A model generated the notes under the pieces. It had not been told where the DNA came from and made no database searches. It worked only from the letters and a program-made list of their open reading frames with translations. This document shows, in pieces, positions 4,398-58,916 of a DNA stretch of 64,000 bases (positions within the stretch are counted from its first letter, which is position 1; every line of letters starts with the position of its first letter). Both the position numbers and the translations under genes were made by a program. This stretch comes from Thiotrichales bacterium (GTDB lineage: Bacteria > Pseudomonadota > Gammaproteobacteria > Thiomicrospirales > Thiomicrospiraceae). Location of the stretch: NCBI GenBank assembly GCA_016938655.1, contig JAFGUG010000031.1, positions 1-64,000 on the forward strand, in the 5' to 3' direction.

Positions 4398-7300
4398 ATG
4401 AACTTCCCTAAAGATAAGAAACAGTTAGTCGCCTTGCTTGAGCGGTGTTTAATTAAAGACCGTTTTCGTTTAAAAAACGAGTTACAGCGCATCGATTTAA
4501 GCGCACTTGATGATGCCGATCTAGAGGGTGTTCGCGGTTCAAACGTCGATGAAAAACCAGCAAAATTGTCTAAGTCGAATCATAAAAATCAGCAGGCCTG
4601 GTTACGCTGGTGTGAAAAAGTTCAAACTTCAATCGATTGGGTGGCAAGAAATGAACAGGCTCGTCCTAAAAACATTGAATACGATGAGCACCTGCCGGTT
4701 GCCGCCAGAAAAGACGAACTGTTAGACCTGATTAAAAACCATCAAGTCGTCGTCATAGCGGGTGAAACTGGGTCGGGTAAGACCACGCAAATTCCTAAAA
4801 TTTGTTTGGATGCAGGGCAAGGTGTGTTTGGGCGGATTGGTTGTACGCAACCTCGACGCTTAGCGGCACGCAGTGTTTCGGAACGTATTGCGGAGGAGTT
4901 GGGGTCTACTTTGGGCGAACTGGTCGGTTACCAAGTTCGATTCCAAGATATGGTGCACCAGCAGAGTTTGATTAAGGTCATGACCGACGGGATTTTACTC
5001 ACCGAAGTGCAAAATGACCGTTTTCTAAATCAATACGACACCATTATTATTGATGAAGCGCACGAGCGAAGCGTCAATATTGACTTTTTATTGGGTATTT
5101 TGAAACAACTTTTGCCCAAGCGTCCCGATTTAAAAGTCATTATTACCTCGGCGACCATCGACACCCAGCGTTTTGCCGAGCACTTCACCATGAACGGTGT
5201 TAAACCGCCTATTGTTGAAGTTTCTGGGCGCACTTATCCAGTTGAACTGCGTTATAACCCACTGGCCCGTTATGAAGACGATGCGGGTAATGTCATTGAA
5301 CAGGACATTCCCACCGGTATTTGCGATGCGGTTGAAGAGCTGATGCACGAAGACCCGTTTGGTGATGTATTGGTGTTTCAGATTGGGGAACGTGACATTA
5401 AAGAGACCGCCGAAGCGCTGCGTAAACGCAATTTAAAAAACACCGAAGTGGTGCCGCTGTATGCGCGTTTGTCGATGGCCGATCAAAACAAGGTGTTTCA
5501 AACCTCGCAAAAACGCCGCATCATTCTCAGTACCAACGTCGCCGAAACATCCTTGACCGTGCCGGGTATTAAATACGTGATTGACCCTGGGCAAGTTCGA
5601 ATCAGCCGTTACAGTGTGCGCAATAAAATTCAGCGTCTGCCGGTTGAGAAGATTTCGCAGGCCTCGGCCAATCAGCGAAAAGGGCGTTGTGGGCGAGTGA
5701 GTGACGGGATCTGTATTCGTCTTTATAGCGAAGAGGATTTTAATTCCCGCCCCGAGTTCACAGACCCAGAAATTCACCGAACTTCACTCGCGTCCATTAT
5801 CTTAACCATGGCGCAACTTAATTTGGGTGAAGTGAAACATTTTCCGTTTATTGAACCGCCGGCGGATAAATCCATTAACGACGGTTTTCGGCAGTTGCAT
5901 GAGTTGGGGGCGTTGGACGAGAAGCGCCGCTTAACCGAAGAGGGGCGACAAATTGCCAAGTTGCCGGTGGATCCGAGCATTGCCAAAATGGTGATTCAAG
6001 CGGAAAAGAACGGCGTATTGGCTGAGGTGTTGATTATTGCTGCGGCCATTAGTATTCAAGACCCACGCGATATTAATGAAACCACCATGCAGGCGGCACG
6101 AGAAAAACACAAGCTGTTTGAAGACGAGCGCTCTGACTTTCTGTTTTTCTTGAATCTTTGGCACTTTTACGAGCATCAGCGCCGTCATTTAACGCAGAAC
6201 AAACTGCGTAAGCTTTGCAAAACCAACTTTTTGTCGTATATGCGCATGCGTGAATGGCATGATTTGTATATGCAACTTGAGCAGAGCCTAAAGCGCACGG
6301 GTATTAAGATTTCGCTCTTGCATCTGTTTGAAGAGATTAAGCAGGGCAATGAAGTGAAAGAGCGATTGAGTGAGGTGCACAGTGTGATGGTGCACCGCTC
6401 ATTAATAGCAGGCCTGCTTGGAAACATCTCATTGCGCGACGACAATAAAGCCTATTTAGGCGCACGTAATACCCGCCTGTTTATTCACCCAAGCTCTAGT
6501 CTGTTTAAGTCAAAACCTAAGTGGATGCTTTCCGGTGAGTTGGTGGAAACCACCAAGCTTTACGCACGCAACAACGCCAATATTGATATTCAATGGGTCG
6601 AACCATTGGCCAAACACCTCATTAAATACAGTTACAACGACCCGCATTGGCAGAAAAAAACCGGTCAGGTGGGTGCGTATGAGTCGGTGACGTTATACGG
6701 TTTGCCGATTGTGAATAATCGTCCGTGTAACTATGGCCCTGTTAACCCCAAAGAGGCGCATAAGATTTTTATTCGCCATGCTTTGGTAGAGGGCCAACTG
6801 AATACCCGAGCTAAATTTTACCAACACAATCAGCGTTTAATTGGCAATATCGAGAAGGTAGAAAATAAACTGCGGAGACCGGATTACTTGGTGGATGACG
6901 AAGTGCTATACCAGTTTTACGACGAAAAAATTCCGGCACATATTTACAATCAACCGGCGTTTGAAACCTGGCTCAAAAAACTCGATAAAGCCACCGAACA
7001 GTCACTCTATTTAACTGAAGATCAGCTTATGAAACAGGGCTTAGATGAGGATTTAAGCACCGCGTTTCCAGATCAAATTCAGCTTAAAAACCAATTGCCT
7101 TTAAACGTAGATTACGAATTTGAACCGGGTAAACAACGTGATGGCGTGGTGTTTAAAATTCCATTGCACGCGCTTAATTTGGTTCAACAGTCACAATTTG
7201 AATGGTTAACTCCCGGTTTCTTAAAGGACAAGATTGTTATTTATATCAAGTCGTTACCGAAACAAGCTCGAAAACAGTTTGTGCCGACGCCGCCGGTGGC

Positions 7301-8483
7301 AGAAGCAGTGTTGCAATGGTTTGCCGATAAAAAATCTCAAGAACAGGGTGATTTTGAAACCCAGCTCGTGCAAGCGTTAAATCGCATTGCCAACGCCAGT
7401 AGCAGTGTCAAAGTTGACCAAACCATGTTTGGTGATGTGGCTTTGCCTGACTACTTAAAACCGTTTTTTATTCTGCTCGATGAGAAGGGGCGCAAACTCA
7501 CTGAAGGCGATGATTTAGCCGATATTAAAAGTCGTTATCAGCACTTAGTCGATGAGAAAATTCAGCAACAAAGCACGCAACAAGCTGGCGGCTTTGAACA
7601 ACGTGAAATCACCGAATGGGATTTTGGTGACCTGCCTGAACAGCAATCGTTAAAAGCCAAAGGCAATCAGTTGGTGGCCTATCCGTGTTTGAGTTTGCAA
7701 CACAGTGAAACGCCGCAACAAAATAAAACTCTACCCCCCGAAATTAAGGTGCTGTTAACCTTGTCCGCTGACCCAGAGCAGGCCAAATTGAGTCACGCTG
7801 AAGCGGTGCAGTTTTTGTTTAAACAACAACTGCACGATAAGATTCGTTACCTTAAAAAACATTTGCCACTTAAGCAGGCCTGCCTAATTTTCTCGCCTTA
7901 CGGAACTTGCGAACATCTGAAAATGCAGGTGATTGATCGTGCTTTGCGGCAATTAATTCCAGAACCCGAAGCGATTCGTAAACAATCTGAATTTGAGCAG
8001 GCCTGCTTACTTTTAAAAACCGATTGGCTTGGAGAAGCACAAACCCTTGCTAATTTGGTGGATGCGATTTTAACCGCCCATCAAAAGATAACTAAAAAGG
8101 TTAAAGGGAAAGTTAATCCACGCTGGTTGCTGTCAATGGGCGATATTCAACAGCAGTTAACCGGTTTGATTCACCCAGAGTTTATCGCCATGACGCCGAT
8201 GGCTTGGTTGCAACAAGTACCTCGCTATCTGCAAGCACTGGAGAAACGTCTTGAGAAAATTGACCAAGACCCTAATAAAGACCAGCTGGCGATCCGACAA
8301 ATTACCCCGCTGTTAAAACAGTATCAAGAACTGGCCAGTAACTCAGCGTATCAACAGCACGCCGATTTAATTGAGGTGCGTTGGTTAATTGAAGAGTTGA
8401 GAGTTTCGCTGTTTGCCCAGCCTATGAAAACCCTTAAACCGGTTTCGATTCAGCGCTTAGAAAAACAGTTAAAAGCGTTGTAA
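4398..8483 (+). CDS. hrpA: ATP-dependent RNA helicase HrpA (DEAH-box)
   Basis: HrpA is a DEAH-family RNA helicase implicated in mRNA processing and, in E. coli, in rescue of stalled ribosomes. The product is 1361 residues from the ATG (E. coli HrpA is 1300). It has GETGSGKTTQ (Walker A, near residue 121), DEAH (near 219), SATID (motif III), and a second RecA-like domain with STNVAETSLTVPG and QRKGRCGRV (motif VI). HA2, OB-fold and the long HrpA-specific C-terminal region follow. An upstream GTG at 4320 is in frame but adds 26 non-family residues, so the ATG was chosen. Three exact copies of the iterated GCAGGCCTGC word lie inside (6408, 7874, 7997). hrpB follows after 10 bases. Confidence 0.95.
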   Translation: MNFPKDKKQLVALLERCLIKDRFRLKNELQRIDLSALDDADLEGVRGSNVDEKPAKLSKSNHKNQQAWLRWCEKVQTSIDWVARNEQARPKNIEYDEHLPVAARKDELLDLIKNHQVVVIAGETGSGKTTQIPKICLDAGQGVFGRIGCTQPRRLAARSVSERIAEELGSTLGELVGYQVRFQDMVHQQSLIKVMTDGILLTEVQNDRFLNQYDTIIIDEAHERSVNIDFLLGILKQLLPKRPDLKVIITSATIDTQRFAEHFTMNGVKPPIVEVSGRTYPVELRYNPLARYEDDAGNVIEQDIPTGICDAVEELMHEDPFGDVLVFQIGERDIKETAEALRKRNLKNTEVVPLYARLSMADQNKVFQTSQKRRIILSTNVAETSLTVPGIKYVIDPGQVRISRYSVRNKIQRLPVEKISQASANQRKGRCGRVSDGICIRLYSEEDFNSRPEFTDPEIHRTSLASIILTMAQLNLGEVKHFPFIEPPADKSINDGFRQLHELGALDEKRRLTEEGRQIAKLPVDPSIAKMVIQAEKNGVLAEVLIIAAAISIQDPRDINETTMQAAREKHKLFEDERSDFLFFLNLWHFYEHQRRHLTQNKLRKLCKTNFLSYMRMREWHDLYMQLEQSLKRTGIKISLLHLFEEIKQGNEVKERLSEVHSVMVHRSLIAGLLGNISLRDDNKAYLGARNTRLFIHPSSSLFKSKPKWMLSGELVETTKLYARNNANIDIQWVEPLAKHLIKYSYNDPHWQKKTGQVGAYESVTLYGLPIVNNRPCNYGPVNPKEAHKIFIRHALVEGQLNTRAKFYQHNQRLIGNIEKVENKLRRPDYLVDDEVLYQFYDEKIPAHIYNQPAFETWLKKLDKATEQSLYLTEDQLMKQGLDEDLSTAFPDQIQLKNQLPLNVDYEFEPGKQRDGVVFKIPLHALNLVQQSQFEWLTPGFLKDKIVIYIKSLPKQARKQFVPTPPVAEAVLQWFADKKSQEQGDFETQLVQALNRIANASSSVKVDQTMFGDVALPDYLKPFFILLDEKGRKLTEGDDLADIKSRYQHLVDEKIQQQSTQQAGGFEQREITEWDFGDLPEQQSLKAKGNQLVAYPCLSLQHSETPQQNKTLPPEIKVLLTLSADPEQAKLSHAEAVQFLFKQQLHDKIRYLKKHLPLKQACLIFSPYGTCEHLKMQVIDRALRQLIPEPEAIRKQSEFEQACLLLKTDWLGEAQTLANLVDAILTAHQKITKKVKGKVNPRWLLSMGDIQQQLTGLIHPEFIAMTPMAWLQQVPRYLQALEKRLEKIDQDPNKDQLAIRQITPLLKQYQELASNSAYQQHADLIEVRWLIEELRVSLFAQPMKTLKPVSIQRLEKQLKAL

Positions 8484-8493
8484 TGAATTGACG

Positions 8494-11097
8494 ATGCGTG
8501 ACTTACCCATTAACAGTGTGCTTAATCAGATTGTCGATACCGTTTCCGGGTCGGCGTGTTGTGTCTTGCAAGCCGATCCAGGGGCGGGTAAATCCACTGC
8601 TGTGCCGTTGGCGATTTTACAATCGGACTGGTTTAACCAACCACAAAATGCAGGCAAAAAAATTGTCATGCTCGAACCCCGCCGTTTGGCGGTGCGTTCC
8701 ATTGCCAATTACCTTGCTAAGCAATTGGGTGAGAAAGTTGGGCAACAAGTCGGGTATCAGGTTCGTAATGACAAGGTTAGCTCCAAAGCTACGCGACTGG
8801 AGATTGTGACGGAGGGTATTTTGACTCGACGATTGCAAAGTGACCCTGAGCTATCCGATACCGCCTTGGTGATGTTTGATGAGTTTCATGAACGCTCCAT
8901 TCACGCCGATTTGTCACTGAGTTTGTGTCTGGATGTGCAAGCCGCTTTGCGGGATGATTTAAAGTTATTGGTCATGTCGGCGACCATTGACACCCTAGCG
9001 GTCAGTGCATTTTTAAACGATGCCCCCGTTATTCAATCGCAAGGCCGTGCTTACCCAGTTGAAACCGTCTATTTGAATCAATCCATTGCAACGAGCGCCA
9101 AGTTTAAGTGGGACATTCTGCCGATTCTGACCAGCGCTATTTTAAAAGCCGTGGAAAACACGCAACAAGATACCTTGGTCTTTCTGCCCGGCCAAGGCGA
9201 GATAAAGCAGACACTGCAAGCGTTGCAAGCGGTTTTGCCCAATCACTCGTGGGCGCTGTTGCCCCTTTACGGCGGTTTAAAACCCGAGCAACAAGATTTG
9301 GCGATTCAGCCGGATGCTCAGGGTCGTCGTAAAATTATCTTAACCACCAATATCGCCGAAACCAGTTTGACCATTGAAGGCGTTGATTGTGTGGTCGATT
9401 CTGGATTAGCTCGCTTGGCACTCTATGATGTCAACAGCGGCATGACCCGCTTGCAAACGCAGCGCATCTCTAAAGCCTCAGCCGAGCAACGTAAAGGCCG
9501 AGCAGGGCGCTTGCAAGCCGGTTGGTGCTATCGGTTATGGAGTGAGGCTCAACAAGCTCAATTGCGCGATTACGATGCCGAAGAGATGACCGTGACCGAT
9601 TTAACCAGCTTGTGTTTGGAGTTGGCCTTATGGGGCGTGCAATCACCGGAAGCGTTGCGTTGGTTAACCATGCCACCACAAGGGCATTTTGAGCAAGCGC
9701 AACAGCTTTTAAAACGTTTGGATTTATTAACAGACAAAGGCCACATTTCTGAGCTTGGCAAGCATGCCATTCAGCTGGGTGCCACGCCACGTTTGGCTAG
9801 GTTATTGTTGTCGGTTAAATCGTCAAATAATCCTCAATTAATGCGTTTGGCGTGTGATGTAGCGGCACTGTTATCGGAACGTGATGTTCTGCAAAATGGT
9901 TATGAAGTAGGTGCCGATTTAGCGATTCGGGTTTTGGCCATACAAGCGTATCGAGCCAATCGTAAAACGGCGCAAACTCACTACTCGATTTTTATCCCTG
10001 CCATGGAGCAGGCCTTGCAAAATTCAAGTAACTGGCAGAAGCAGCTGGGGGTCAGAGGGGAATCGACAAACGGGTCTGATACGTCTTTGGACGATTTAGG
10101 TAAATTAGTGGCTTGGGCGTTTCCGGATCGCCTTGCCATAAAACGTTCTGCCAATCAGTCTCGGTATTTAATGGCGAATGGTAAAAGTGCTTTGTTACAC
10201 GAGAATGACGCGTTAAACACCGAGCCCTGCTTGGTGATTGCCAACATTGATGGGCAAGTAAAAGAGGGGCGGGTGTTTTTAGCGACGGCTTACTCTGAGC
10301 AGACTTTGCAGACTCAGTTCAAATCGCATATTCAAAATCACGCCGTTTACCAGTTTGATGAACATCGCCAAGAGGTTGTTGGCAGTCAACAAGTAAAATA
10401 CGAGGCACTGATACTGTCTGAAAAACGCTTGGAAAAACCAGATGAATCGGCTTTGCATGACTGTATGTTAAAAACCTTAAAAAGCAAACGTTTAAGCTTA
10501 TTGCCGTGGAACGAAACCAATTTAGCGTGGTTGGAGCGAGTGCGTTGGTTGAAGTTTCAAAGCCAAGCGCAAACTCAAACTCAAGCGCAAATTCAAGAAA
10601 AATCAGCAGGCCTGCCAGATTTAACTGAAGCGGCGTTAATTGAGCATTTAAGCGATTGGCTAGCGCCCTATTTAAGCGGTGTGCAAACGATTAAAGCGCT
10701 TAAAAATCTGGATTTGTTGATGATATTACAGGCGCAAGTACCGTATGAATTGCAAGCCGAGATTAGCCAACAAGCGCCCGAATTTTATTTAACACCATCG
10801 GGTAAAAAGGTGAAGATACGTTATGCGGTCGGGCAAAACCCAACTGTGTCGGTGCAGTTACAAGAGCTATTTGGCGAGTTGGCTTCGCCAAAACTCGCAT
10901 GGAATTCGGTGCCGCTTACGTTTGAGTTGTTATCGCCCGCCAGACGACCGATTCAAATTACTGCTGACCTAGCCAATTTTTGGCAAACCTCGTATTTTGA
11001 AATTGCCAAAGAGATGCGCGGTCGTTATCCACGGCATCGTTGGCCAGAAGAGCCGTTAAAAGAGAAAGCAGGGCGCTCAATCAAGCCAAGAGTTTAA
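8494..11097 (+). CDS. hrpB: ATP-dependent helicase HrpB
   Basis: HrpB is a paralogue of HrpA within the DEAH superfamily; its cellular job is poorly defined. The product is 867 residues from the ATG at 8494 (E. coli about 810). It shows ADPGAGKST (Walker A, about residues 28-36), DEFHER as motif II (DEFH rather than DEAH is normal for HrpB), MSATIDT, TTNIAETSLTIEG and QRKGRAGRL, with the HrpB C-terminal domain ending in RYPRHRWPE. A TTG two codons upstream is an alternative start. It is almost certainly co-transcribed with hrpA. A Gln/Thr-rich stretch near residues 688-702 (repeated QTQAQ) looks like a local simple-repeat expansion. Confidence 0.94.
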   Translation: MRDLPINSVLNQIVDTVSGSACCVLQADPGAGKSTAVPLAILQSDWFNQPQNAGKKIVMLEPRRLAVRSIANYLAKQLGEKVGQQVGYQVRNDKVSSKATRLEIVTEGILTRRLQSDPELSDTALVMFDEFHERSIHADLSLSLCLDVQAALRDDLKLLVMSATIDTLAVSAFLNDAPVIQSQGRAYPVETVYLNQSIATSAKFKWDILPILTSAILKAVENTQQDTLVFLPGQGEIKQTLQALQAVLPNHSWALLPLYGGLKPEQQDLAIQPDAQGRRKIILTTNIAETSLTIEGVDCVVDSGLARLALYDVNSGMTRLQTQRISKASAEQRKGRAGRLQAGWCYRLWSEAQQAQLRDYDAEEMTVTDLTSLCLELALWGVQSPEALRWLTMPPQGHFEQAQQLLKRLDLLTDKGHISELGKHAIQLGATPRLARLLLSVKSSNNPQLMRLACDVAALLSERDVLQNGYEVGADLAIRVLAIQAYRANRKTAQTHYSIFIPAMEQALQNSSNWQKQLGVRGESTNGSDTSLDDLGKLVAWAFPDRLAIKRSANQSRYLMANGKSALLHENDALNTEPCLVIANIDGQVKEGRVFLATAYSEQTLQTQFKSHIQNHAVYQFDEHRQEVVGSQQVKYEALILSEKRLEKPDESALHDCMLKTLKSKRLSLLPWNETNLAWLERVRWLKFQSQAQTQTQAQIQEKSAGLPDLTEAALIEHLSDWLAPYLSGVQTIKALKNLDLLMILQAQVPYELQAEISQQAPEFYLTPSGKKVKIRYAVGQNPTVSVQLQELFGELASPKLAWNSVPLTFELLSPARRPIQITADLANFWQTSYFEIAKEMRGRYPRHRWPEEPLKEKAGRSIKPRV

Positions 11098-11142: not shown

Positions 11143-11154
11143 AGCAGGCCTGCT
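11143..11154. repeat. AGCAGGCCTGCT palindrome, intergenic copy
   Basis: An exact 12-mer in the 95-base gap between hrpB and a small membrane protein gene, preceded by AAAAGTC. See the finding on the iterated word. Confidence 0.9.
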
Positions 11155-11192: not shown

Positions 11193-11507
11193 ATGCAGAA
11201 AAAAACAGGGTTATTATTATTGTTGGCGTGGGCAGCAGGCCTGTTAGGTTTAGTGTTAGGATTGGTGTTTGACCCAACGTGGTTTGCCCGATTTGGTAGC
11301 TTAGTGGTGCTGTTTTCGGTGATGAGTGAGTATTCGTTGTTACATGGCGAATTGCATATTTTGTATCAGCGTTTAGAAAAGGTCATGGCCGAGGATGATA
11401 TGCCGGATTTAACGCCGTCTAAATGGCACTTAAAAAAAGTTTGGATTTCACACGTCACGATTGTAATCGGTACCTTGATTTGGGGCTTTGGAGATTTGAT
11501 GATTTAG
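11193..11507 (+). CDS. Small inner-membrane protein, unknown function
   Basis: A 104-residue protein with three hydrophobic stretches: about residues 5-25 (LLLLLAWAAGLLGLVLGLVF), 30-42, and a C-terminal one ending WISHVTIVIGTLIWGFGDLMI. A charged central segment (LEKVMAEDDMPDLTPSKWHLKK) lies between. I recognise no family. A near-copy of the iterated palindrome (AGCAGGCCTGTT at 11234) encodes part of the first helix. It may be read together with hrpB, which ends 95 bases upstream, but an exact intergenic copy of the palindrome separates them. Confidence 0.65.
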   Translation: MQKKTGLLLLLAWAAGLLGLVLGLVFDPTWFARFGSLVVLFSVMSEYSLLHGELHILYQRLEKVMAEDDMPDLTPSKWHLKKVWISHVTIVIGTLIWGFGDLMI

Positions 11508-11805: not shown

Positions 11806-13827
11806 TTAATCGATAACGTTTAACGTGAAGGTGGCACTTGCCGTTCCAGTGTCGGCATTGGTAACTGTAATTGTGACCTGATACTCCGCTGGTGCCGTGT
11901 TACCGCTGTAGGTTGCAATACCGGTAGCACTGTTAATGGTCAGTTCTGGCAGAGCAGGGCTCACATTCATGCTGTAAGTTGCATTGTCATCAACATTACT
12001 GACGGTTGGCTCTTCTAATTCTACCGTGTTGTCAGAGGTTCCAAAGAACAACGAGGAGATTCGTCCAACAATCTCTTGATCGTTCAGGCTGATTTCCGGA
12101 GATGAAATTGCATCGGTTGCAACCATAACGGCACTTGATTGCTTGGCTTCCCATTCACCGGTAATGCCATATTTCGCTTCACCAATGGTTGCTAAGTAGT
12201 AATTTGAACCTGGGGTTAGGTTACTAAAGTCACCATTTACATTCGTGGTGATTAGCGTGTTTAGAGCCGCATCGGCGAAAAGTCCAACGGTGATGTTTCG
12301 TGTGCCATCAGCATCCGTGAAGCTGCCAGGGGTGCTATTGATGCTGCTACCAGTGACTGAGTCCAAGGTTGGCGGGGTAATGGTGGTTGCACTGTCGGTT
12401 AGATCAGCCGTGATAATCTCTATGCCAGCTGATGTTTGCGCTTCCCAAGTTTCTGACTGACCGTTAAAGGTTTCCCCTGTCATTGCTAAATAGTAAGCGG
12501 TCGAAGGCTCGAGTTCAGTAAAGTTACCCTCTACATCGGAGGTAATGAAGGTGTCTAAATCAAAATCTGAATACAGACTGACAGTAACATTTCGGGTGCC
12601 ATCGGCATCGTTAAAGGTACCGGGCGTGACATTAATTGTGGTGGTGGTTTTAGACGCTTCTGTTGGTGGTGTAATGGTCGATGGGCTGTCGGTTGAGTCA
12701 CTGGTTGAGACTTCAAGTGCTGATGATTGTTTGAACTCAAAGGTTTCAGAGAGTTCATTTTTCGCTTCACCAATCGTAGCTAAGTAATAGGTCGTTGAAA
12801 AACTGAGTCCGGAAAACTCGCCATTGATATTGGTTTGGAGCGGGTTTGTGAGAGCGGCATCCGAATATAGAGCGACCGTGACATTTTGCACGCCATCTTC
12901 GTCTTCAAACAGGCCTGGTGTTACATCAATGCTTTTGCTGGTTCTGCTTTCAAGTTCAGGGGCTTGAATGATTGTTGGGCTGTCAGTAATGGCCGTGACT
13001 GTGAATGCAAACGTGACTCTTACTGTGGCTTCAGCAGGATTCTCTTCGCCGCCAATGACACTGTTAATCTCATTAGAGATTAGACGGTATTGACCCTCGG
13101 AAAAGCTAAGATCGTTTAAATCGATGTCGGTAATTGTAAAGATGCGTTCTGATTGTTCTGCGGTGTTTGCTGGCGAAATCATGCTGCCATTAGTGATCAC
13201 ATTGTCAGATTCGTCCACGATGACAAACGGGTAGCTGTTTTCTAAAACACCTTCACCGGGAATGTCGTCATCACTTAGGCGAATCGAACCGCTTAAGGTG
13301 TCGCGCTCGGTCAGTGAGTTTGGTAGATCAAACACGGCAATGAGTGGCGAATCACTTAATAAATCTTGTTTAATGACATCTAAATTACCTGAGGCTGTGC
13401 TGTAGTTATTTGCGCAAACTAATGTCAAACGTTCTACTTCATCCGGTCCATCTGCAATATTAACGTTTGTTAGGTTAATGGTTAACAGATTGTCGTCAAC
13501 AGAGTAGATATCCGGTAGAGTGGTTGAACCGTTTGGTAAGGTCACGGTCGCAGCAATACTGTTGTTACAGCCTTCTGCAATAAGATCAACGGTTTTGGTT
13601 TCGCCCTCTTTAATGGGGACGTTGAGGGTTTCTTGTTTTAGCAGGGTGCTGGTTGTCGTCCCCGAACTGGTTGTGCTTGAACTTCCGCCGCCACCGCAGG
13701 CAGATAACAGTAATGAGCTAGAGACAAACAAGGATGAAAACAGGATTTTTCTCTTCGAACTTGGGCGAGGTGTCTGTTCATTATTAACAAAAGCGGCGTT
13801 TTGTTGCTTGTTTGTTCGATTCTTCAT
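11806..13827 (-). CDS. Secreted lipoprotein with three ~97-residue repeats and a C-terminal Ig-like domain
   Basis: The product is 673 residues from the ATG at 13827. The N terminus is charged, followed by a hydrophobic segment ending LLLSACGGGGSSS, a lipobox with Cys as the acylated residue and a Gly/Ser tether. Between roughly residues 282 and 575 are three homologous units of about 97 residues. Each has TDSxxTIxxP near its start, TPGxFxDxDGxRNVTVxLYSD in the middle, and YYLAxxGE with an aromatic/Glu segment near its end. The last ~100 residues (NVDDNATYSMNVSP to TFTLNVID) resemble cadherin-like or putative-Ig (He_PIG) domains. It is probably surface exposed with an adhesive or matrix role, but the function is unproven. 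A TTG 42 codons upstream was rejected because it disrupts the signal peptide. Confidence 0.8.
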   Translation of the reverse strand: MKNRTNKQQNAAFVNNEQTPRPSSKRKILFSSLFVSSSLLLSACGGGGSSSTTSSGTTTSTLLKQETLNVPIKEGETKTVDLIAEGCNNSIAATVTLPNGSTTLPDIYSVDDNLLTINLTNVNIADGPDEVERLTLVCANNYSTASGNLDVIKQDLLSDSPLIAVFDLPNSLTERDTLSGSIRLSDDDIPGEGVLENSYPFVIVDESDNVITNGSMISPANTAEQSERIFTITDIDLNDLSFSEGQYRLISNEINSVIGGEENPAEATVRVTFAFTVTAITDSPTIIQAPELESRTSKSIDVTPGLFEDEDGVQNVTVALYSDAALTNPLQTNINGEFSGLSFSTTYYLATIGEAKNELSETFEFKQSSALEVSTSDSTDSPSTITPPTEASKTTTTINVTPGTFNDADGTRNVTVSLYSDFDLDTFITSDVEGNFTELEPSTAYYLAMTGETFNGQSETWEAQTSAGIEIITADLTDSATTITPPTLDSVTGSSINSTPGSFTDADGTRNITVGLFADAALNTLITTNVNGDFSNLTPGSNYYLATIGEAKYGITGEWEAKQSSAVMVATDAISSPEISLNDQEIVGRISSLFFGTSDNTVELEEPTVSNVDDNATYSMNVSPALPELTINSATGIATYSGNTAPAEYQVTITVTNADTGTASATFTLNVID
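12107..12984 (-). repeat. Three tandem ~290-bp coding repeats in the lipoprotein gene
   Basis: The units are at about 12692-12984, 12401-12691 and 12107-12400. They share the protein pattern TDS...TPG.F.D.DG.RN.TV...YYLA..GE. The two downstream copies are closer to each other (both ITPP and DADGTRN) than to the first, which suggests stepwise duplication. Confidence 0.75.
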
Positions 13828-16166: not shown

Positions 16167-16493
16167 CTATTGGGCGTTAGAGTCGGTTGAAACGTGGGTG
16201 TTTTTAGGTTTGTACTTTCCCCAATTCTTTTTAGCGTTAAGGTACAGTTCTTCAACTTTTTCTCTGGCCCAGGGGGTCTTTCTTAAAAATGTTAGCGTCG
16301 ACTTAATGCTGGGGTTACTTTTAAAACAGTTGATGGGGATACGCTGTGCTAATTCATCCCAGCCGTAATTGGCTTCAAGCTGCGTAACCATCTCTTTTAA
16401 GGTGATGCCGTGTAATGGATTATGGGCTTGATCGCGACGAGGTGTTTCGGCGGTTTCAATGTGAGCAGGCCTGCTGGTTTTTGAGTCGGTCAT
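16167..16493 (-). CDS. VF530 (DUF2132) family DNA-binding-like protein
   Basis: A 108-residue product matching the small VF530 family, known structurally as a DNA-binding-like fold without a defined role. Hallmarks are [37 protein letters not shown] and [16 protein letters not shown]. An extra ~25-residue polar N terminus and a short C-terminal tail flank the family core. The start ATG overlaps the stop of the upstream glycosyltransferase gene (ATGA), so translation is probably coupled. An exact AGCAGGCCTGCT copy (16464-16475) encodes SRPA near the N terminus. Confidence 0.88.
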
Positions 16494-17821
16494 TTTGAAT
16501 TTGGGTTCCTATTTTTTGCTTCTATCCATTGTGCCATATATTGCGTGCTTTTATGGTGGTGATGACGCAACATACTCCCTATAAAGTTTTGGGTGCGATG
16601 CATTTGAAGTTCATTCTGAAGTTGTAGCAAGGTGTTAATAAAAGCATGGCCTAAGTTAGGTTGTTGATAGCGTTGTTCACCCAGCTTAAAGCCGCGTTTT
16701 TGAGCCAGTTGCCAGATTTTTTTATCGGTATAAAGTGCGATTGACTGCTCAGTTAAATTTTTTTCTGTTTCACCAATGTAGCCAGGCCAAGCGTTGTTGT
16801 TTGCTGTTACTGGAAGCATTCCTTCGCTGCCAATTGGCGTTGTAATCGTTGGAGTGCCGCACAACATAGCTTCAGCGAGCTTGCCTTTTATACCGGCTCC
16901 AAAACGCAGGGGTGCAAGCATAATGCGAGCATGAGCGATGACCTCTAGTGCATCTTTTGCCCAGCCTTTGACTAAAAACCCTTGCTTTGGGTTGTGTAGG
17001 TTGGTGACTTTTTTAGCCGGATAGGCACCGTATACATGCAACTCGGCCTGCGGAAGTTGTTGCCGAATGGCTGGCCAAATGGATTCTTTTAGCCACAAAA
17101 CGGAATCCCAGTTGGGGGCGTGTCGAAAATTACCAATAAACACAAAGTGCTGTCTTCGTTCAAAATCAGGCAGTAATTGATCGAGTTTTTGATAGATAAA
17201 AGGCAGGGTAAACAGTAGGTTAGCGTTTATTTTAAATGCGTTTTGGAGAAGTTTGGATTCGAACTCAGAAATCATCAGTGTTAAATCACAGCGTAAAATG
17301 GAAGCAATTTCACGTTGCGCTAAATCGGCGTTAGCCATGGCATTAAATAGGTGAGAATCAGATTGGTTCCACAACACAGACAAATCTAAGCAGGCCTGCT
17401 CACTTTCCGTTTTATGACTCGTTTCTTGATTTGATTTTAATAACGTTTTTAGCCCTTGTTGGCGTGCTTCCCTTAAACTGTGTAAGTCTTCGGTATTTAA
17501 AATGCGCATGGCTTTTGGGCAGACGGTTTCTACTCGCCAACCAAACTGCTCTTCCATCATAAATCGGTCAAAAATTACGACTGTGGGCTGCAAAGTATTC
17601 AAAAAGTCATCAAAAGAGGCGTTGTTCAGTTCTATGTTTTGCTCTTGAATGCCAAACGGAGTTAAATCTAAGCGATGTTCTCCCAAATTTGATGGGCTGG
17701 CAAACGTTATTTCAAAATCATGGGCTTTAAAAAGATGAATCAGTTGCATCATGCGCGTGCCAGCGGCCGATGAATTGGGCTCTGGCCAAACATAGCCAAT
17801 AATTAGGAGGGTTTGATTCAT
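16490..17821 (-). CDS. Glycosyltransferase (GT-B fold, group 1-like)
   Basis: A 443-residue protein predicted to transfer a sugar from an activated donor onto an envelope or surface glycan. The N-terminal Rossmann half opens with [20 protein letters not shown], typical of GT4-like enzymes with a Gly/Ala-rich acceptor loop. The C-terminal half has [19 protein letters not shown] and [24 protein letters not shown], which carries the conserved Lys and acidic (GxKGKLxEA) nucleotide-sugar site. No neighbouring polysaccharide cluster is visible, so the substrate is unknown. The C terminus has a His run (RHHHHK). It contains an exact palindrome copy at 17389-17400 (EQACLD). Confidence 0.85.
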
Positions 17822-18794: not shown

Positions 18795-19148
18795 ATGAAA
18801 TCAGCTTTAAAATCAGCAGGCCTGCTAATGGGTGCTGCGGCAATCTTGGCCTTAACAGGGTGTTCAACCACCGCTCAAGTAGAAAAAATGGGAGAGCAAA
18901 CCTATAAACTTACTGCGTTTTACAATGAACCGGTGCAAGGGTTTGACAGTTGGTCTTTGCGAAGTGAAGCAAAGCAGTTGTGCCCAACGGGTCACCACTA
19001 CCTTCTTCGTAAAGCGGGCAAAGCCTCGGAAATGGCCACCAATCATGCATCATGCGTGACCGGTGCTAATTGTGAATATGCTTTAGAGTGGCGCATTAAG
19101 TGCACCGATCAGCCACAAGAGAAATTTACCATCTTTGGTAAAACATAA
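18795..19148 (+). CDS. Small Cys-containing lipoprotein, unknown function
   Basis: A 117-residue protein with signal peptide and lipobox LTGC (Cys near residue 23). The mature domain has four more Cys (LCPTG, SCVTGANC, IKCTD), possibly two disulfides, and the motif AKQLCPTGHHYLLRKAGK. An exact copy of the iterated palindrome (18815-18826) encodes SAGLLM of the signal peptide. The function is unknown. It resembles small gammaproteobacterial outer-membrane lipoproteins only in general layout. Confidence 0.65.
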   Translation: MKSALKSAGLLMGAAAILALTGCSTTAQVEKMGEQTYKLTAFYNEPVQGFDSWSLRSEAKQLCPTGHHYLLRKAGKASEMATNHASCVTGANCEYALEWRIKCTDQPQEKFTIFGKT

Positions 19149-22803: not shown

Positions 22804-23967
22804 ATGAATCTACATGAATATCAGTCGAAGTCTTTATTTAAAGAATACGGCATTGCTGTCCCAAAAGGGCAACTTATTACACAACTTGACGAATTAGATT
22901 CGGCCATGCAAACCGTCGGTGGTGATGCATGGGTTGTGAAAGCACAGATTCATGCGGGTGCTCGTGGAAAAGCGGGCGGTGTTAAGTTGGTTAAAAGCGC
23001 TGAGGAGGCACATCAAGTCAGCTCTGTGTTGCTTGGTTCTTCATTGGCGACGATTCAAACGGCTGGCAAGGCACTGCCTATAAACAGCTTGCTGATTGAA
23101 GAGACGCTTGCGATTGAAGAAGAACTGTATTTAAGTTTGGTGGTCGATCGCGTTACTCGAAGCCATACCTTTGTGATTTCAGCGTCCGGTGGAATGGATA
23201 TTGAAGCGGTTGCGGAAACTTCGCCAGAGAAAATTTTGAGTATTCACATTGACCCAACAGTGGGCGTCATGCCTTATCAATGCCGTGAAGTTGGGTTTGC
23301 TTTGGGCCTAACGGGCGCTGCTTTTAAACAGCTCGGTCAGTTGATGAATCAGTTTTACCAATTGGCTCTGGATAAAGATGTTTCGCAAATCGAAATTAAT
23401 CCGCTGATTCGTACCGCCGATAATACGCTGATTGCATTGGATGCTAAAGTCAACATTGATTCAAATGCCCTCTATCGTCAGCCCACCTTGGTAGAAATGC
23501 GCGATTACTCACAAGAAGATGAACGAGAGGCCAAAGCCTCTGAATACGATTTAAATTATATTGCCCTAGACGGTGACATTGGCTGTATGGTGAATGGTGC
23601 AGGCCTGGCGATGGCCACGATGGATTTAATTAAATTAAATGGCGGTGAACCCGCTAACTTTTTGGATGTGGGCGGCGGTGCAACACCAGAGCGTGTGGCC
23701 GAAGCGTTTAAACTCATTTTGTCTTCGTCACAGGTAAAGTCCATTTTGGTCAATATCTTTGGTGGTATTGTGCGTTGTGACCTAATTGCCGAAGGCATCA
23801 TTCAAGCGGTTCAAGAGGTGGGGTTAACCATTCCAGTGGTGGTGCGTTTAGAAGGCACTAATGTGGAATTGGGTAGACAAAAATTAGCAGAGAGCGGATT
23901 AAGTATTATTACCGCAAACGATTTGGCAGATGCTGCTCGCAAAGTTGTAGAAGTGGCAGGAGAGTAA
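22804..23967 (+). CDS. sucC: Succinyl-CoA ligase (ADP-forming), beta subunit
   Basis: The beta subunit of the TCA-cycle enzyme that interconverts succinyl-CoA and succinate with ATP formation. The 387-residue protein starts [17 protein letters not shown]. It has the ATP-grasp domain with [23 protein letters not shown], and the C-terminal CoA-ligase-like half ([31 protein letters not shown]). Length and motifs match the family. It lies two bases upstream of sucD. Neither sucAB nor sdh genes are adjacent, so whether it runs in an oxidative or reductive branch cannot be told here. Confidence 0.96.
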
Positions 23968-34509: not shown

Positions 34510-34531
34510 AGTTAGCAGGCCTGTCAACTTT
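34510..34531. repeat. Imperfect copy of the iterated palindrome
   Basis: AAAGTTAGCAGGCCTG followed by TCAACTTT keeps the outer AAAGTT/AACTTT dyad although the core's right end has mutated (GCAGGCCTGT). It lies between the flavodoxin terminator and the anti-sigma gene. Confidence 0.7.
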
Positions 34532-36585: not shown

Positions 36586-37003
36586 GTGAAGCTCCTAATG
36601 GAATTGTAAGTAATTAATGTGTAATTTCTTGGCAACAATCATTTGCTGTTATAAGTACTACAATTCAAATTAGGATTTGGATGCACTGGGTTTAATAAAA
36701 AACTAAAAAAAGTTAATTAATGCGTGTTTGAATTTGTTTTTATTTAATTAATTCATTTAGTTATGAACTAATCAATTTTATTTTATTTTTTATATAAAAA
36801 GTTAGCAGGCCTGCTAAAACCTTAAAACCTTGGATAGTGAATCGGATGTTTGGGGAAATGAATCAATAGAGTTTGGTCAATAATGGGGAGTACTGTATAA
36901 AACTGCTTATTATTGTGCAAGACAACCGTTACATGCAGACTGAAAAGGTCATTGCAAAAACATAAACGGTTGTATTTTTAGAGAATTGACTGCATCGGCT
37001 TAT
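36586..37003. other. 418-bp AT-rich intergenic region
   Basis: This stretch lies upstream of the DUF3455 gene and downstream of the HAD phosphatase gene, which is on the same strand. AAGCTCCTAATGG near 36589 contains the DUF3455 ribosome-binding site (AGGAG on the minus strand). It is very AT-rich at 36690-36800. An extended palindrome copy is at 36802-36817. I see no open frame of note and no confident ECF-type promoter. Confidence 0.5.
36802..36817. repeat. TTAGCAGGCCTGCTAA palindrome, intergenic copy
   Basis: A 16-base perfect dyad around the iterated core, preceded by AAAAAG. It lies in a long AT-rich gap where a GC-rich word stands out strongly. Confidence 0.92.
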
Positions 37004-38623: not shown

Positions 38624-38635
38624 AGCAGGCCTGCT
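38624..38635. repeat. AGCAGGCCTGCT palindrome, intergenic copy
   Basis: An exact 12-mer, preceded by TTTAAAACTT and followed by TATTTTG, in the rppH-aceE gap. Confidence 0.9.
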
Positions 38636-45236: not shown

Positions 45237-45248
45237 AGCAGGCCTGCT
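45237..45248. repeat. AGCAGGCCTGCT palindrome, intergenic copy
   Basis: An exact 12-mer, preceded by CAATTG and followed by AATTTTTAAAAA, about 90 bases upstream of the CHASE-GGDEF gene. Confidence 0.9.
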
Positions 45249-47092: not shown

Positions 47093-47104
47093 AGCAGGCC
47101 TGCT
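47093..47104. repeat. AGCAGGCCTGCT palindrome, intergenic copy with T-run
   Basis: An exact 12-mer within AAAAGTAAGCAGGCCTGCTT, followed by further T residues. It lies between the convergent CHASE-GGDEF and Nudix-rhodanese genes, where it could double as a terminator-like element. Confidence 0.88.
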
Positions 47105-49431: not shown

Positions 49432-49447
49432 TTAGCAGGCCTGTTAG
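49432..49447. repeat. Imperfect copy of the iterated palindrome after the 96-residue ORF
   Basis: TTAGCAGGCCTGTTAG differs from the 16-base dyad by one core base, and TTTTAAAAA follows. It sits within 5 bases of the upstream stop codon. Confidence 0.7.
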
Positions 49448-49841: not shown

Positions 49842-49859
49842 GTTAGCAGGCCTGCTAAC
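49842..49859. repeat. GTTAGCAGGCCTGCTAAC palindrome, intergenic copy
   Basis: An 18-base perfect dyad, the longest perfect extension of the word in this window. It lies between the small membrane protein's terminator and the HNH gene. Confidence 0.92.
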
Positions 49860-49910
49860 GTTTAATAAGCGAACATGGTCGTTTGCTTAAAGGCTGGTTT
49901 ATTCATTGTC

Positions 49911-50207: not shown

Positions 50208-50593
50208 GTCGATAATTCTTAATTGGGTTTGGTAAACAAAACACGATTCCAGTGCGCCGATCGGTTTATCTTAATGTAAATAAATAATGCCATTGAGTGC
50301 GTTTTAAATGCTTAGTTGTTTAAGATTCGATTTAAATTAAAAAACAGTTTTATTTGTCTGTTGCGTTTTTTGTTTGTTATTTTTGATAAGGAAAACCTGC
50401 ACTCTAAAACCCAGCAGGCCTGCTGACTTTTAAAAGCTGTTTTTAAGATTTAAGTGCTTTAAGTGAGTTAAAAATAAGTTGAGTAAGGTTCGGTAGGCGT
50501 TAAAAAACGCCAAGGTTTAAACGTTTTGGTTTTTTAATATTTTATACTGTAAGGTTTAAAACAATATTTAAACATTTTGGAGAAGCCGTTTTC
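50208..50593. other. 386-bp intergenic region upstream of the symporter gene
   Basis: It is AT-rich, with a palindrome copy (50413-50424) followed by GACTTTTAAAAG. A small hairpin GGCGTT/AACGCC is near 50497-50512. Promoter-like AT-rich sequence lies at 50530-50560. No open frame of note. Confidence 0.5.
50413..50424. repeat. AGCAGGCCTGCT palindrome, intergenic copy
   Basis: An exact 12-mer with the right flank GACTTTTAAAAG, mirroring the AAAGT-type left flank of other copies. Confidence 0.9.
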
Positions 50594-52076: not shown

Positions 52077-52088
52077 AGCAGGCCTGCT
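52077..52088. repeat. AGCAGGCCTGCT palindrome, intergenic copy
   Basis: An exact 12-mer preceded by CTAAAAGTG in the 275-base gap between the symporter and DUF1840 genes. Confidence 0.9.
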
Positions 52089-52841: not shown

Positions 52842-53303
52842 ATGATTAAGAAGATACTATTAGCGTTAACATTTTTTACCATGAGTGCCGTGGCTTATGC
52901 CCAGCAAACTTTAGTACCGGCTGAGTTTTTGGATCAGTGGGAGAAGCCTCAAGCGTTAAATGCCGACACTAAGTGGGTCATTTTTACTTCGACCAAAGAG
53001 GCCGGAAAATGGGTGAAAGAGACCCTAGAAACCATGCAGGTGGAAGATATGGCGGCTAAGCAGTGGTTATATGTTGCGGATATTTCAGGGATGCCAAGCT
53101 TAATCACCAAGTTTATGGCGATTCCAAAAATGCAGGATTACAAGTTTCCGATTGCGTTGGAAAGAGAAGGGGATATTACACAAGCTTGGCCTAAGCAAGA
53201 AGACGCCGTGAATGTTTATAAGATGGATGGATTAACCATTCAAAAAGTGTATGCGTTAACTTCAGAACCTGAAGTGGTTGAGTTTTTTAAAACCATGAAC
53301 TAA
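52842..53303 (+). CDS. Exported protein of unknown function (thioredoxin-fold-like)
   Basis: A 153-residue product with a signal peptide (MIKKILLALTFFTMSAVAYA, cleavage before QQT). The mature part has KWVIFTSTKEAGKWVKETLE, WLYVADISGMPSLITKFMAIPKM and FPIALEREGD. The order resembles a degenerate thioredoxin-like fold without CxxC, so redox activity is not supported. Similar proteins occur in marine gammaproteobacteria as hypotheticals. Two copies of the iterated palindrome follow its stop. Confidence 0.75.
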   Translation: MIKKILLALTFFTMSAVAYAQQTLVPAEFLDQWEKPQALNADTKWVIFTSTKEAGKWVKETLETMQVEDMAAKQWLYVADISGMPSLITKFMAIPKMQDYKFPIALEREGDITQAWPKQEDAVNVYKMDGLTIQKVYALTSEPEVVEFFKTMN

Positions 53304-53358
53304 AACCAAAACCAAAACCATCAACTAACATCGTCTAAAACTAAGACGCTTTAAAGTT

Positions 53359-53407
53359 AGCAGGCCTGCTCGAAATCTATGGGTTTCAGCAGGCCTGTTT
53401 GTTTTTG
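53359..53407. terminator. Paired palindrome copies forming a terminator-like hairpin
   Basis: The exact copy AGCAGGCCTGCT (53359-53370) and the near-copy AGCAGGCCTGTT (53388-53399) can pair with each other. The stem CAGGCCTGCT-c-GAAA / TTTC-AGCAGGCCTG encloses TCTATGGG and is followed by TTTGTTTTT. It lies between two convergent genes. Confidence 0.7.
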
Positions 53408-53440
53408 GAGCCTTATTCTTTAAGGCTTAATTCGTAATTA

Positions 53441-56196
53441 TTATGGGTGTTGTTCATAATTTAAATCTTCAAGCCGTTTGGGTTTATCAAACAGGTAACC
53501 CTGCATAATTGGGCAGCCCAGTTTGATTAAAAAATCCCTTTGCTGTTCGGTTTCTACGCCTTCGGCAATGGTGGTGAGTCCCATGGTTTTAGAAAGCGCC
53601 AGTATGGTTTTTACAATCGCTTCATCCTGTTTATTATTTAGCATGTCACGCACAAACGATTGGTCAATTTTAAGCCAATCAATCGGTAGTTTTTTCAAGT
53701 AATTCAGTGAAGAGTATCCGGTTCCAAAATCATCAATGGCAAAGGTCACGCCTTGCTTGCGAAGTTTCTTGATTTTGGTAATGGAGCTGTCTAAGTCAGT
53801 CATTAAAATACTTTCGGTAATTTCAAGCTCGAGTCGATTCGGGTTAAATTGATGGGTCTGAATTTGCTGAGTGACCGTCGTGACAAAATCCTCTCTGCGT
53901 AACTGATGTTCACTGATATTAACCGCAATCGTTAAATGTTGGGTTTGCTCAGATTGACTCCAAATCTCCAATTGTTGGCAGGCCTGTTGCAAGACCCATT
54001 GACCATCTCCACAATCAGTCCGCAACTCTCGGCCACTTCAATAAATACACCTGGCGACAGTAAGCCTTTAATTGGGTGCTGCCAGCGAATTAAGGCCTCA
54101 TAACCAAGTATATGGGCTTGTTGGTCTAATTTTGGTTGATAGAATAGTACAAATTCATTTTGGGCAATGGCTTTGCGTAAATCGTTTTCAAGTAGGCTGC
54201 GCTCTAAAATTGAGGCTTGCATACTTGGGTCAAAGAATCGAACACTGTTGCGGCCTGCCGATTTGGCTTGGTACATAGCAAGGTCTGAGCGCACCATTAA
54301 CTCTTCAACCGATTCAAAGTGGTCAGATGAAAGACTCACACCGATACTGGCACTGATAATGCATTCATGCCCTTTGATTAAGTAGGGCATGGATACTTGT
54401 GTGAGTATTTTGTCGCCAATGTGTTTGGCTTGTGTAGCCGCGTCTTCTTCGGTGGCACCGATTTTTTCTAGTAACACAATAAACTCGTCACCGCCGGGTC
54501 TGGCCACGGTGTCAACCTCTCTGACACAAGCTTCCAAGCGTTGGCCGACTTGAATTAATAGTTGATCCCCGTAATCGTGGCCTAAGGTATCGTTTAAATT
54601 CTTAAAGTGGTCAAGGTCAATAAACAGTACGGCAAAGTAATCTTTATTTCGGGCACTCTGTGCGCGTGCCTGTTTTAAGTGGTCTTGCAAGAGTCTGCGA
54701 TTTGCAAGGTTGGTTAGGGGGTCATAAAACGCTAAATTTTGAATCTGCTCTTGGTTGCTTTTATAAACGCTAATATCATTAAAGGTCGAGAGATAGTGGC
54801 TGACATTGCCCTCGTCATCTTTAACCGCTGTGATGTTTTGGCGAACAGGGTACTGCTCGCCATTTTTACGTTGATTAATAATCTCACCTTGCCAGTATCC
54901 ATTGGTTTTTATGTCTTGCCATAAGTCGTCATAAAACTTTTTACTATGGGTGTGTGAGCTTAAAATTCTAGGGGTTTTTCCCAACACCTCTTTATCGGTA
55001 AAGCCGGTTACTTGAGTAAAGGCATTATTGGTGCGGATAATTTTTTCGTTATGGTCGGTAATAAAAATTGCCTCTTGCGTGTCAAATGCGGCCGCCGCGA
55101 GTCGGTGAGATGCGTTGAGTTCTTGCAGATTTGCGTAACTGGTGTGCAGGCGTCGGTTATAAATAAATAACAGCACAATCAAAAATCCGATAATCGTTAA
55201 AGCCAACAGGCCTGCGATGATTTGCTGACGATTTTGTTGCCAAATATCCGCAAAGGTTATTTTGGTAAGTTTGTTATAAGGATACACTTTTAGGGCTCTT
55301 AACACCTCTCTCACCGGCTCATAATCGGCTGGAATGCTGAAGCCGTAAATACCGATGGCATTGGTGGTTGCATTGTCATGGGGCAGTGCCAGCAATGCCG
55401 CAGTGACTCGGCCGGCTAAATTTTCACCGACATGGGGCATGGCCACCAATGGCCACTCTGGGTACAAGCGGGTGGACGTTAAAAAGGGAAAGTTGGCTTG
55501 GTTTTGTGCATTTAAAACTCGAAATTGGTTGGGTTTGATGTCACCTGATTTTTCAAGGCTTTCGAGCACGCCACTGCGAACAAACGCCGCATCGGCTTGG
55601 TTGGTGATTAGGCTTTGTACGGCTTTATCATGCGGCATAGTGGTTTGAATGATGGTGATGTCTTCATCAATGTTTATGCCCACTTGCAACAGTTCAAACG
55701 CCTGCATTTCAAATCCGCCAAACGATTTAATGGAGGGCGTTGCAATGGTTTTACCCTGCAAATCCTTTAGGGTTTGAATGGCGTTATTGTCATTTTTGAC
55801 TAAAATCGTGCCACCAAAACTGCGCACAACTTGACCGCTTTTTTTATTAATTAAGGTCACGAGAGGCGAAGACATTTTGGTTGAGTACGCTAATTGAACA
55901 TAGTGCGCAGAGTTGGTAAAAACAAAGTCAACATTTTTGCGGGCAATGGCGTCTTCTAACTCGCCGTAGTTGAGTGGAATTAATTTAAACTCCAGCCCAG
56001 GAACGTGTTGGTTTAGATAGTTAACAAGCGGTTGCCATTTTGCTTCTTCAACCGGTTTAGGGCGAAATGCCAACAAGCCAATGGTGATTTTCTCTTGCGC
56101 CATAATGAGTGCTGGAAAAAGCATCAGGCCTGCTAATAAACTGGTTATGATTGGCAGCAGTATTAATCGATGGATGTGATTAAGCAAAAGTTGCAT
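53441..56196 (-). pseudogene. PhnD-PAS-GGDEF-EAL c-di-GMP enzyme, frameshifted in the EAL domain
   Basis: The intact ancestor would be 918 residues. It has a signal/membrane N terminus and a PhnD-like periplasmic binding domain (about 35-310, ITIGLLAFRPKPVEEAKWQPL). A membrane helix (about 325-350), PAS (about 365-480) and GGDEF (VARPGGDEF with REVD I-site) follow, then EAL (GYEALIRWQHP, then NISEHQLR, ELEITES, IDDFGTGYSSL and IAEGVET). A single missing base near 54003-54010 shifts the frame within AESCGLIVE, so the first frame ends at 53932 and the second continues to 53441. All EAL catalytic motifs survive across the two frames. It may be a real pseudogene, a sequencing error or a rare programmed shift. 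An ATG start at 56196 was chosen. Confidence 0.85.
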
Positions 56197-58846: not shown

Positions 58847-58880
58847 TAAAAGCACTGCGATTCGTCCAGTGCTTTTTTTA
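58847..58880 (+). terminator. Terminator after yfhL
   Basis: The arms AGCACTG (58851-58857) and CAGTGCT (58867-58873) are flanked by A-run and T-run. Confidence 0.85.
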
Positions 58881-58904
58881 TTTGAAAGCGCCCATTTAAA
58901 AGTC

Positions 58905-58916
58905 AGCAGGCCTGCT
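58905..58916. repeat. AGCAGGCCTGCT palindrome, intergenic copy with extended dyad
   Basis: An exact 12-mer in ATTTAAAAGTC...AACTTTATTTAAA, so AAAGT and ACTTT extend the dyad across one mismatched pair. It lies between yfhL and the GST gene. Confidence 0.92.

Follow-up and report, generated by a model that had tools for sequence, protein, structure and literature searches.

Repeats of a palindromic word in the window and its genome

The window analyzed here, a stretch of bacterial DNA of 64,000 nucleotides, carries the same short palindrome at many places. We refer to this palindrome as the word and describe it at three lengths: an 8-base core (CAGGCCTG), a 10-mer (GCAGGCCTGC) and a 12-mer (AGCAGGCCTGCT). 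The 10-mer is present in 20 copies, against 0.02 expected from dinucleotide shuffles, and the core in 34. All 20 positions at which the original prediction had placed the 10-mer are exact and, as it had also claimed, 17 of these copies are the full 12-mer. The eight further places that it had given as one-mismatch relatives (490, 4591, 11234, 27893, 34514, 49434, 53388 and 60164) are present as well, with CAGGCCTG inside each. On our own list of open reading frames (ORFs), 10 of the 20 10-mers are intergenic, again as claimed, in a window of which non-coding DNA makes up 16%. Because these ORFs are simple longest-ORF calls, labels near gene ends are approximate. The 10-mer is indeed absent from the ORFs that the same source had labelled aceE, aceF, lpdA, sucC and sucD (a Pfam check was made for the sucC label only), although the 8-base core occurs once in sucC, at 23600. 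The sites are listed below; no strand is assigned to any of them.

6408..6417, exact 10-mer, in the hrpA-like gene
7874..7883, exact 10-mer, in the hrpA-like gene
7997..8006, exact 10-mer, in a poorly conserved stretch of the hrpA-like gene
10606..10615, exact 10-mer, in the hrpB-like helicase gene
11144..11153, exact 10-mer, intergenic
16465..16474, exact 10-mer, in a short ORF
17390..17399, exact 10-mer, in a glycosyltransferase gene
18816..18825, exact 10-mer, at the start of a short ORF
26005..26014, exact 10-mer, in the NAD synthase gene
28911..28920, exact 10-mer, in an ORF
29347..29356, exact 10-mer, in an ORF
36805..36814, exact 10-mer, intergenic
38625..38634, exact 10-mer, intergenic, upstream of the ORF labelled aceE
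45238..45247, exact 10-mer, intergenic, downstream of the ORF labelled lpdA
47094..47103, exact 10-mer, intergenic, convergent genes on either side
49846..49855, exact 10-mer, intergenic, hairpin flanks
50414..50423, exact 10-mer, intergenic, hairpin flanks
52078..52087, exact 10-mer, intergenic
53360..53369, exact 10-mer, intergenic, convergent genes on either side
58906..58915, exact 10-mer, intergenic, hairpin flanks
491..498, core CAGGCCTG, variant flank
4593..4600, core CAGGCCTG, in the hrpA-like gene; core at this position in 15 of 30 aligned genomes
11236..11243, core CAGGCCTG, variant flank
12910..12917, core CAGGCCTG
23600..23607, core CAGGCCTG, in sucC
27895..27902, core CAGGCCTG, position common to T. 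chilensis
30604..30611, core CAGGCCTG
34516..34523, core CAGGCCTG
49436..49443, core CAGGCCTG
53390..53397, core CAGGCCTG
53979..53986, core CAGGCCTG
55207..55214, core CAGGCCTG
56125..56132, core CAGGCCTG
60166..60173, core CAGGCCTG

The four nearest named relatives of the hrpA-like helicase (Pfam DUF3418, OB_NTP_bind and Helicase_C) all belong to Thiomicrorhabdus (T. chilensis, T. cannonii, T. marina and one metagenome-assembled genome), and by this similarity we take the window to come from a Thiomicrorhabdus. We take its family to be the Thiomicrospiraceae; NCBI places the genus Thiomicrorhabdus in the Piscirickettsiaceae.

The genome to which the window belongs (G000) is a draft assembly (108 contigs, 2,933,684 bases) with an estimated contamination of 7.72%. 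It contains 596 copies of GCAGGCCTGC, and the reversed control is found 0 times. Trained on 501,846 bases from this genome, Markov models predict 2.2, 2.1 and 2.9 copies at orders 1 to 3, 18.8 at order 4 and 173 at order 5, the last two values being too high because the word itself contributes to the counts of short words. The genome-wide count therefore far exceeds the order-3 and order-4 expectations, against which the original prediction had proposed to measure it. In the G000 sample, the core reaches a density of 472 per Mb. Copies lie in unrelated contexts on each of the four large contigs sampled. Together with the substitution differences in hrpA described below, this shows that they are not a recently amplified longer repeat. 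The claim of a selected genome-wide word, of the type of the cyanobacterial highly iterated palindrome HIP1, an uptake signal or a chromosome-organising site and with no known exact precedent, thus holds. Among these three types, our results favor an uptake signal, the main rival being a chromosome-wide binding site. In the open-licence literature, over-representation of AGGCCT led only to passages on E. coli octamers, and none of five exact spellings of the word led, by title, to a paper on bacterial genomes.

A longer motif with A-tract flanks

The near-invariant unit is CAGGCCTG, which sits within a 24-bp motif, AAAnTnAGCAGGCCTGCTnAnTTT. Indeed, in 428,597 bases of G000 (both strands), one-base variants of AGCAGGCCTGCT numbered 3 within CAGGCCTG and 67 at the two outer positions, compared to 158 exact copies. 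Alignment of 201 CAGGCCTG sites of G000 (402 oriented rows) gave the consensus aAa.T.AGCAGGCCTGCT.A.tTt, and the intergenic copies alone gave AAA.T.A...T.A.TTT. The word is thus present as originally predicted, but the 12-mer did not stand as its unit, since CAGGCCTG plus A-tract flanks describes it better.

The flanks persist deep inside genes, more weakly than between genes. For this comparison, we used only ORFs of 200 codons or longer and sites lying 150 bp or more inside them, with GGCC sites in such regions as controls; each palindromic site enters twice, once per side, and the best of the four bases is shown. Compared to 746 other GGCC sites, the 75 in-gene sites were enriched in A at -8 (p 2e-9), A at -7 (p 1e-9) and T at -4 (p 2e-12). 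Three other genomes of the family (G005, G023 and G080) showed a weaker trend in the same direction, as did G030 in part. Within genes, the flank scores of one half of the site were not significantly correlated with those of the other (r 0.14, permutation p 0.09).

Dialects of the word and their distribution in the family

At least 100 copies of ANCAGGCCTGNT were found in 31 of 58 genomes of the family. The other 27 have at most 24, with at most 4 copies of the reversed control in any genome, and include two that use another dialect, T. cannonii (G020) and G023. Outside the family, 365 Gammaproteobacteria of a class-wide draw of 369 genomes have at most 22 copies. Word-less species also occur within the family, and on an hrpA tree of 30 genomes the presence of the word changes at least four times, which shows that it is dispensable.

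We surveyed the spelling of the word in samples of 7 to 87 kb from relatives. All dialects are centered on GGCC, with AG, AC, AA or CC as outer bases depending on the species, apart from the form of G023 and the asymmetric one of T. cannonii. The form ACCAGGCCTGGT is used in eight Thiomicrorhabdus samples (G008, G009, G014, G015, G018, which is T. aquaedulcis HaS4, G021, G027 and G030) and in G033, G064, G067 and G072. G005 and G017 spell the word AACAGGCCTGTT, G080 and G081 use a CCCAGGCCTGGG-like form, and G023 uses ACCGGCCGGT. Mixed forms occur in T. chilensis (G025), and mixed AGC/ACC in G035, G063, G071 and G075. GGCC is constant across dialects; the CAG/CTG shoulder varies in two of them, those of G023 and T. 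cannonii. In five word-less genomes, G003, T. marina (G012), G019, G024 and G076, we found no convincing substitute word in 67 to 127 kb each, the lists of G019 and G076 being crowded by clustered repeats. Other words, unrelated and strongly repeated, were also seen in the samples of G018 (L109-L110), G019 (L081-L082, L149-L152) and G076 (L105-L106, L159-L161), where they may represent CRISPR or different repeat arrays.

Replacement at orthologous positions

T. cannonii uses an asymmetric form, AAAAAACTCAACAGGCCGGGTAG, with an A-tract on one side only. In 220 kb of its genome we counted 50 AACAGGCCGG, 39 AACAGGCCGGGT and 5 CAGGCCTG. Nine aligned CAGGCCTG sites of T. chilensis correspond in T. 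cannonii to 4 asymmetric, 0 palindromic and 5 other sequences, and 14 aligned sites of G005 to 4 asymmetric, 0 palindromic and 10 others. Conversely, CAGGCCGG/CCGGCCTG sites of T. cannonii are CAGGCCTG in T. chilensis in 4 of 12 cases and in G005 in 4 of 14, where 1 of the 14 is unchanged. The core is kept in G005 at 5 of 8 T. chilensis sites, and sites of G000 keep it in T. chilensis (3/13), G017 (1/3) and G005 (4/13).

We regard the asymmetric form, by inference from these sequences, as the most telling point for an uptake sequence. The site of a homodimer, a hairpin or a methylation palindrome should not turn one-sided, and a receptor reading one face can, so that the T. cannonii form favors a receptor.

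A codon alignment of hrpA from 30 genomes shows the core at one position in 15 of them, with AG, AA or AC as outer bases depending on the species and without indels. At another site, 7997, which lies in a poorly conserved stretch, the same residues are found in 0 of 29 relatives. These data bear on the proposal that the word is a Chi-like recombination hotspot or a transposed element of the repetitive extragenic palindromic (REP) type. Such a word would be frequent, short and genome-wide, as observed. However, the hrpA sites differ from those of relatives by substitution, and 47 of 115 exact 10-mers in the G000 sample are coding, both of which speak against an REP-type element. A Chi-like role is contradicted by AACAGGCCGG in T. 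cannonii, for which no clear strand bias was found in the 220 kb (29 with and 21 against the G-rich strand, p 0.32). We give this proposal almost no credence.

Methyltransferases and mobile DNA

The original prediction had suggested an associated DNA methyltransferase. Matches to PF00145 (C5 methyltransferases) were found in 21 of the 58 family genomes and to PF01555 (N4/N6) in 22. However, neither is matched in 13 of the 31 genomes that bear the word, and PF00145 is missing from the whole g5 set of nine genomes, which have 522 to 798 words each. The distribution of these two families, the ones covered, does not follow the word, and we abandoned the link.

This bears directly on the view that a methyltransferase and methyl-directed repair make the word in the manner of HIP1, in the absence of selection. 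According to extracts of Elhai 2015 (PMC4390886), HIP1 occurs at 300 to 2700 per Mb in most cyanobacteria outside one group, a range that includes the density of the GC-rich palindromic core in G000, and HIPs are likewise replaced by other palindromes in some species. However, the same extracts report a cognate methyltransferase in every HIP genome, in contrast to the 13 genomes above. Furthermore, the motif described here reaches A-tracts 8 bp from the core, also in genes, and has an asymmetric offshoot.

A resident plasmid adds to this contrast. The assembly of T. aquaedulcis has 844 words, 839 on the chromosome and 5 on plasmid pTmrp1 (96,830 bp), where 33.3 would be expected at chromosomal density (P 1.4e-9). 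The plasmid is poor in the word and not free of it, since its 7 cores compare to about 0.9 expected by Markov. Its GGCC content is 2.1/kb, compared to 5.2/kb in two chromosome samples. As the plasmid shares the enzymes of the cell, its depletion is not what mutation or methylation acting cell-wide would predict, unless the plasmid arrived recently. Taken together, we consider a HIP-like origin improbable.

A plasmid-like contig of G000 (C67) carries genes that resemble, by eye, those of a type IVb pilus (L182), with an ATPase 61% identical to one on pTmrp1.

Genomic placement and spread

In the G000 sample, 68 of the 115 exact 10-mers are intergenic, compared to 12.8 expected (binomial p 2e-35). 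Gaps between convergent genes hold 27 of the 67 classified intergenic 10-mers and make up 50 of 271 gaps (p 3e-5). The shorter core is intergenic at 92 sites and coding at 109. Of ten further CAGGCCTG genomes, nine have more intergenic sites than expected (G030 only just), and G063 does not. Such a placement would be expected if the word were merely the stem of a standard intrinsic terminator, and six window copies do form folds of -4.8 to -8.5 kcal/mol, which in four cases run through the word (-5 to -8.4 kcal/mol). However, coding copies outnumber intergenic ones in nine of the same ten genomes (24 to 4 in G030, 27 to 2 in G063), G017 being the exception with 8 to 11, and the flanks persist deep in genes. 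No fold was better than z -1.8. At mirrored free positions of 104 intergenic sites, extra pairing was modest: position -3 showed it (39 versus 26.3 expected, p 0.002), and positions -9 and -10 did so to a slight degree (p 0.02 and 0.04). Finally, a terminator scan of 36001-54000 marked 24 sites (19.6 in shuffles), with no word hairpin among them. We therefore judge it very improbable that the word is a terminator stem and nothing else; terminator use of intergenic copies is plausible as a secondary role.

The spacing of 124 cores over 260 kb of one contig is exponential (Kolmogorov-Smirnov p 0.77). Along the single-contig chromosome of G030, the word is spread evenly, fourteen 20-kb pieces containing 5 to 12 cores each (dispersion index 0.64). 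The GC skew of this chromosome changes sign twice, and the fourteen pieces show no origin-terminus pattern of cores. Thus, a strand or origin-terminus bias, both raised in the original prediction, was seen neither in the asymmetric form of T. cannonii (strand) nor in G030 (origin-terminus). Sites of the matS type, marking the terminus region, were considered and rejected, the cores of G030 not being confined to one chromosomal domain.

The longest word-free gap on the 260 kb measures 17.75 kb, with 8.4 cores expected (L009, G000 C3, about 162.8-180.5 kb). It contains genes for carboxysome shell proteins, CsoS2, a carboxysomal carbonic anhydrase and RuBisCO; with these genes inside, it is not obviously a phage.

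The main rival explanation holds that the word is bound all over the chromosome by a sequence-specific DNA-binding protein, probably a dimer, such as a nucleoid organiser or a segregation or replication factor, and is selected site by site. A palindrome with symmetric A-tract flanks is what such a protein would be expected to bind, and the even spread and the presence on the chromosome rather than on the plasmid also fit. However, the word is dispensable, as judged from its repeated changes on the tree, and the positions of its sites turn over. Additionally, a homodimer should not prefer the asymmetric form of T. cannonii, and G030 lacks an origin-terminus pattern. We consider this explanation unlikely, though clearly deserving more weight than the others set against an uptake sequence.

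A putative uptake sequence

By analogy with the DNA uptake sequences (DUS) of Neisseriaceae and the uptake signal sequences (USS) of Pasteurellaceae, we think that the word is probably an uptake sequence for natural transformation, palindromic in most species. Family-restricted dialects, a near-constant core, A-tract flanks in genes, rewriting at orthologous positions, word-less sister species, even spread, plasmid depletion and terminator-like placement are, in combination, what uptake sequences show.

According to this proposal, a DNA receptor of the natural-transformation machinery would read the word, so that DNA of its own kind would be preferentially imported. Fragments bearing the word would be imported and recombined more often, and the word would accumulate at tolerated chromosome positions by molecular drive. 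A shift in receptor preference would rewrite the spelling genome-wide, and its loss would let the word decay. The unit read may span about 24 bp, with a GGCC center, CAG/CTG shoulders, one dialect base per side, then a T and an A-tract, the latter roughly one helical turn away from the center. Most dialects would be two-sided and that of T. cannonii one-sided. In intergenic DNA, often where genes converge, the palindrome may be re-used as a weak terminator.

We advance more tentatively, as a proposal that may well be wrong, that the Thiomicrospiraceae represent a third independent family with an uptake word, here two-sided and read by a symmetric or dimeric receptor, and that in T. cannonii the reader changed and half of each of some hundreds of sites was rewritten, leaving a one-sided word.

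As to the machinery, all 31 genomes with 100 or more words have ComEC, as do 23 of the 27 others, a difference (p 0.04) that rests partly on incomplete assemblies.

Several observations weigh against an uptake sequence. ComEC is also present in word-less species. No receptor was found among the candidates searched: ComP_DUS (PF16732) had no match in the genome of the window, in a search without a responding control; GspH/FimT (PF12019) occurs in only 3 of the 58 genomes, all word-less; and a solitary pilin (L179:11375-11905) does not track the word. Close orthologues of this pilin (>190 bits) are found in 10 of the 58 genomes, including word-less G003, but not in word-rich G008, G017, G018 and G027 or in any of the nine g5 genomes, so that it is not the general receptor. 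A perfect palindrome is just as suggestive of a dimeric DNA-binding protein. In two g5 genomes, G063 and G067, no A-tract is evident within genes. In T. cannonii, 18 of 26 full 12-mers of its form are intergenic and 3 lie deep in genes, and CAGGCCGG lies deep in genes in 19 of 53 cases, with the same flanks in weaker form. Site turnover between G000 and both T. chilensis and G005 is high, on small counts. The scarcity of the word on pTmrp1 could also be due to recent arrival of the plasmid, and a plasmid-like contig of G000, with 3 cores versus 7 expected (P 0.08), is not significantly poor. Finally, we found no report of transformation, uptake sequences or competence in these genera in the open-licence literature.

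At L181:6711-13906 (G000 C75), pilin-like proteins of unusual length (up to 496 amino acids) are encoded in a cluster, several of them with a type IV pilin N terminus.

Comparison with known systems

According to the accessible part of PMC12616744, discrimination by motif is known only in Neisseriaceae and Pasteurellaceae. Like the word described here, the DUS of Neisseriaceae, whose receptor is ComP, are short words present in hundreds to thousands of copies per genome, with a constant core and dialects that follow phylogeny; extracts of Frye et al. 2013 (PMC3630211) also describe genomes with two dialects, relatives that lack the word, its inverted pairing at terminators and, for Simonsiella, 1294 dyad-symmetric pairs that overlap. 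Their constant core, CTG, as given in such extracts, is also the shoulder of most dialects here. However, the words and the bacterial classes differ, the palindrome is here the main form and has A-tract flanks, CTG is replaced by CGG in G023 and in one half of the T. cannonii form, ComP_DUS gave no match in the genome of the window (in the search without a responding control), and uptake is putative.

The USS of Pasteurellaceae are likewise gammaproteobacterial, combine a core with AT-rich regions and are re-used at terminators, as described in the accessible part of PMC12616744, and their layout is closest to the one-sided form of T. cannonii. Unlike the GGCC core with CAG/CTG and A-tracts about one turn from the center, on both sides in most dialects, the USS described there have a GCGG core and, downstream at a distance of about two helical turns, two AT-rich regions. 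For the USS as for the word, the receptor is putative.

If our reading is correct, this would be a third family with an uptake word, in free-living sulfur-oxidising autotrophs, and self-tagged DNA uptake would have evolved repeatedly, also outside host-adapted life. Palindromic dialects, an asymmetric offshoot and word-less sisters would form a natural series in which the receptor could be found by co-variation and the change in spelling of an uptake word could be tested. It might also open genetics in the carboxysome-bearing bacteria of this family.

Left edge of the window

A tandem repeat at 2-105 has six copies of ATACTGGTTCGGAT at a spacing of 18 bp, the last copy having one mismatch.

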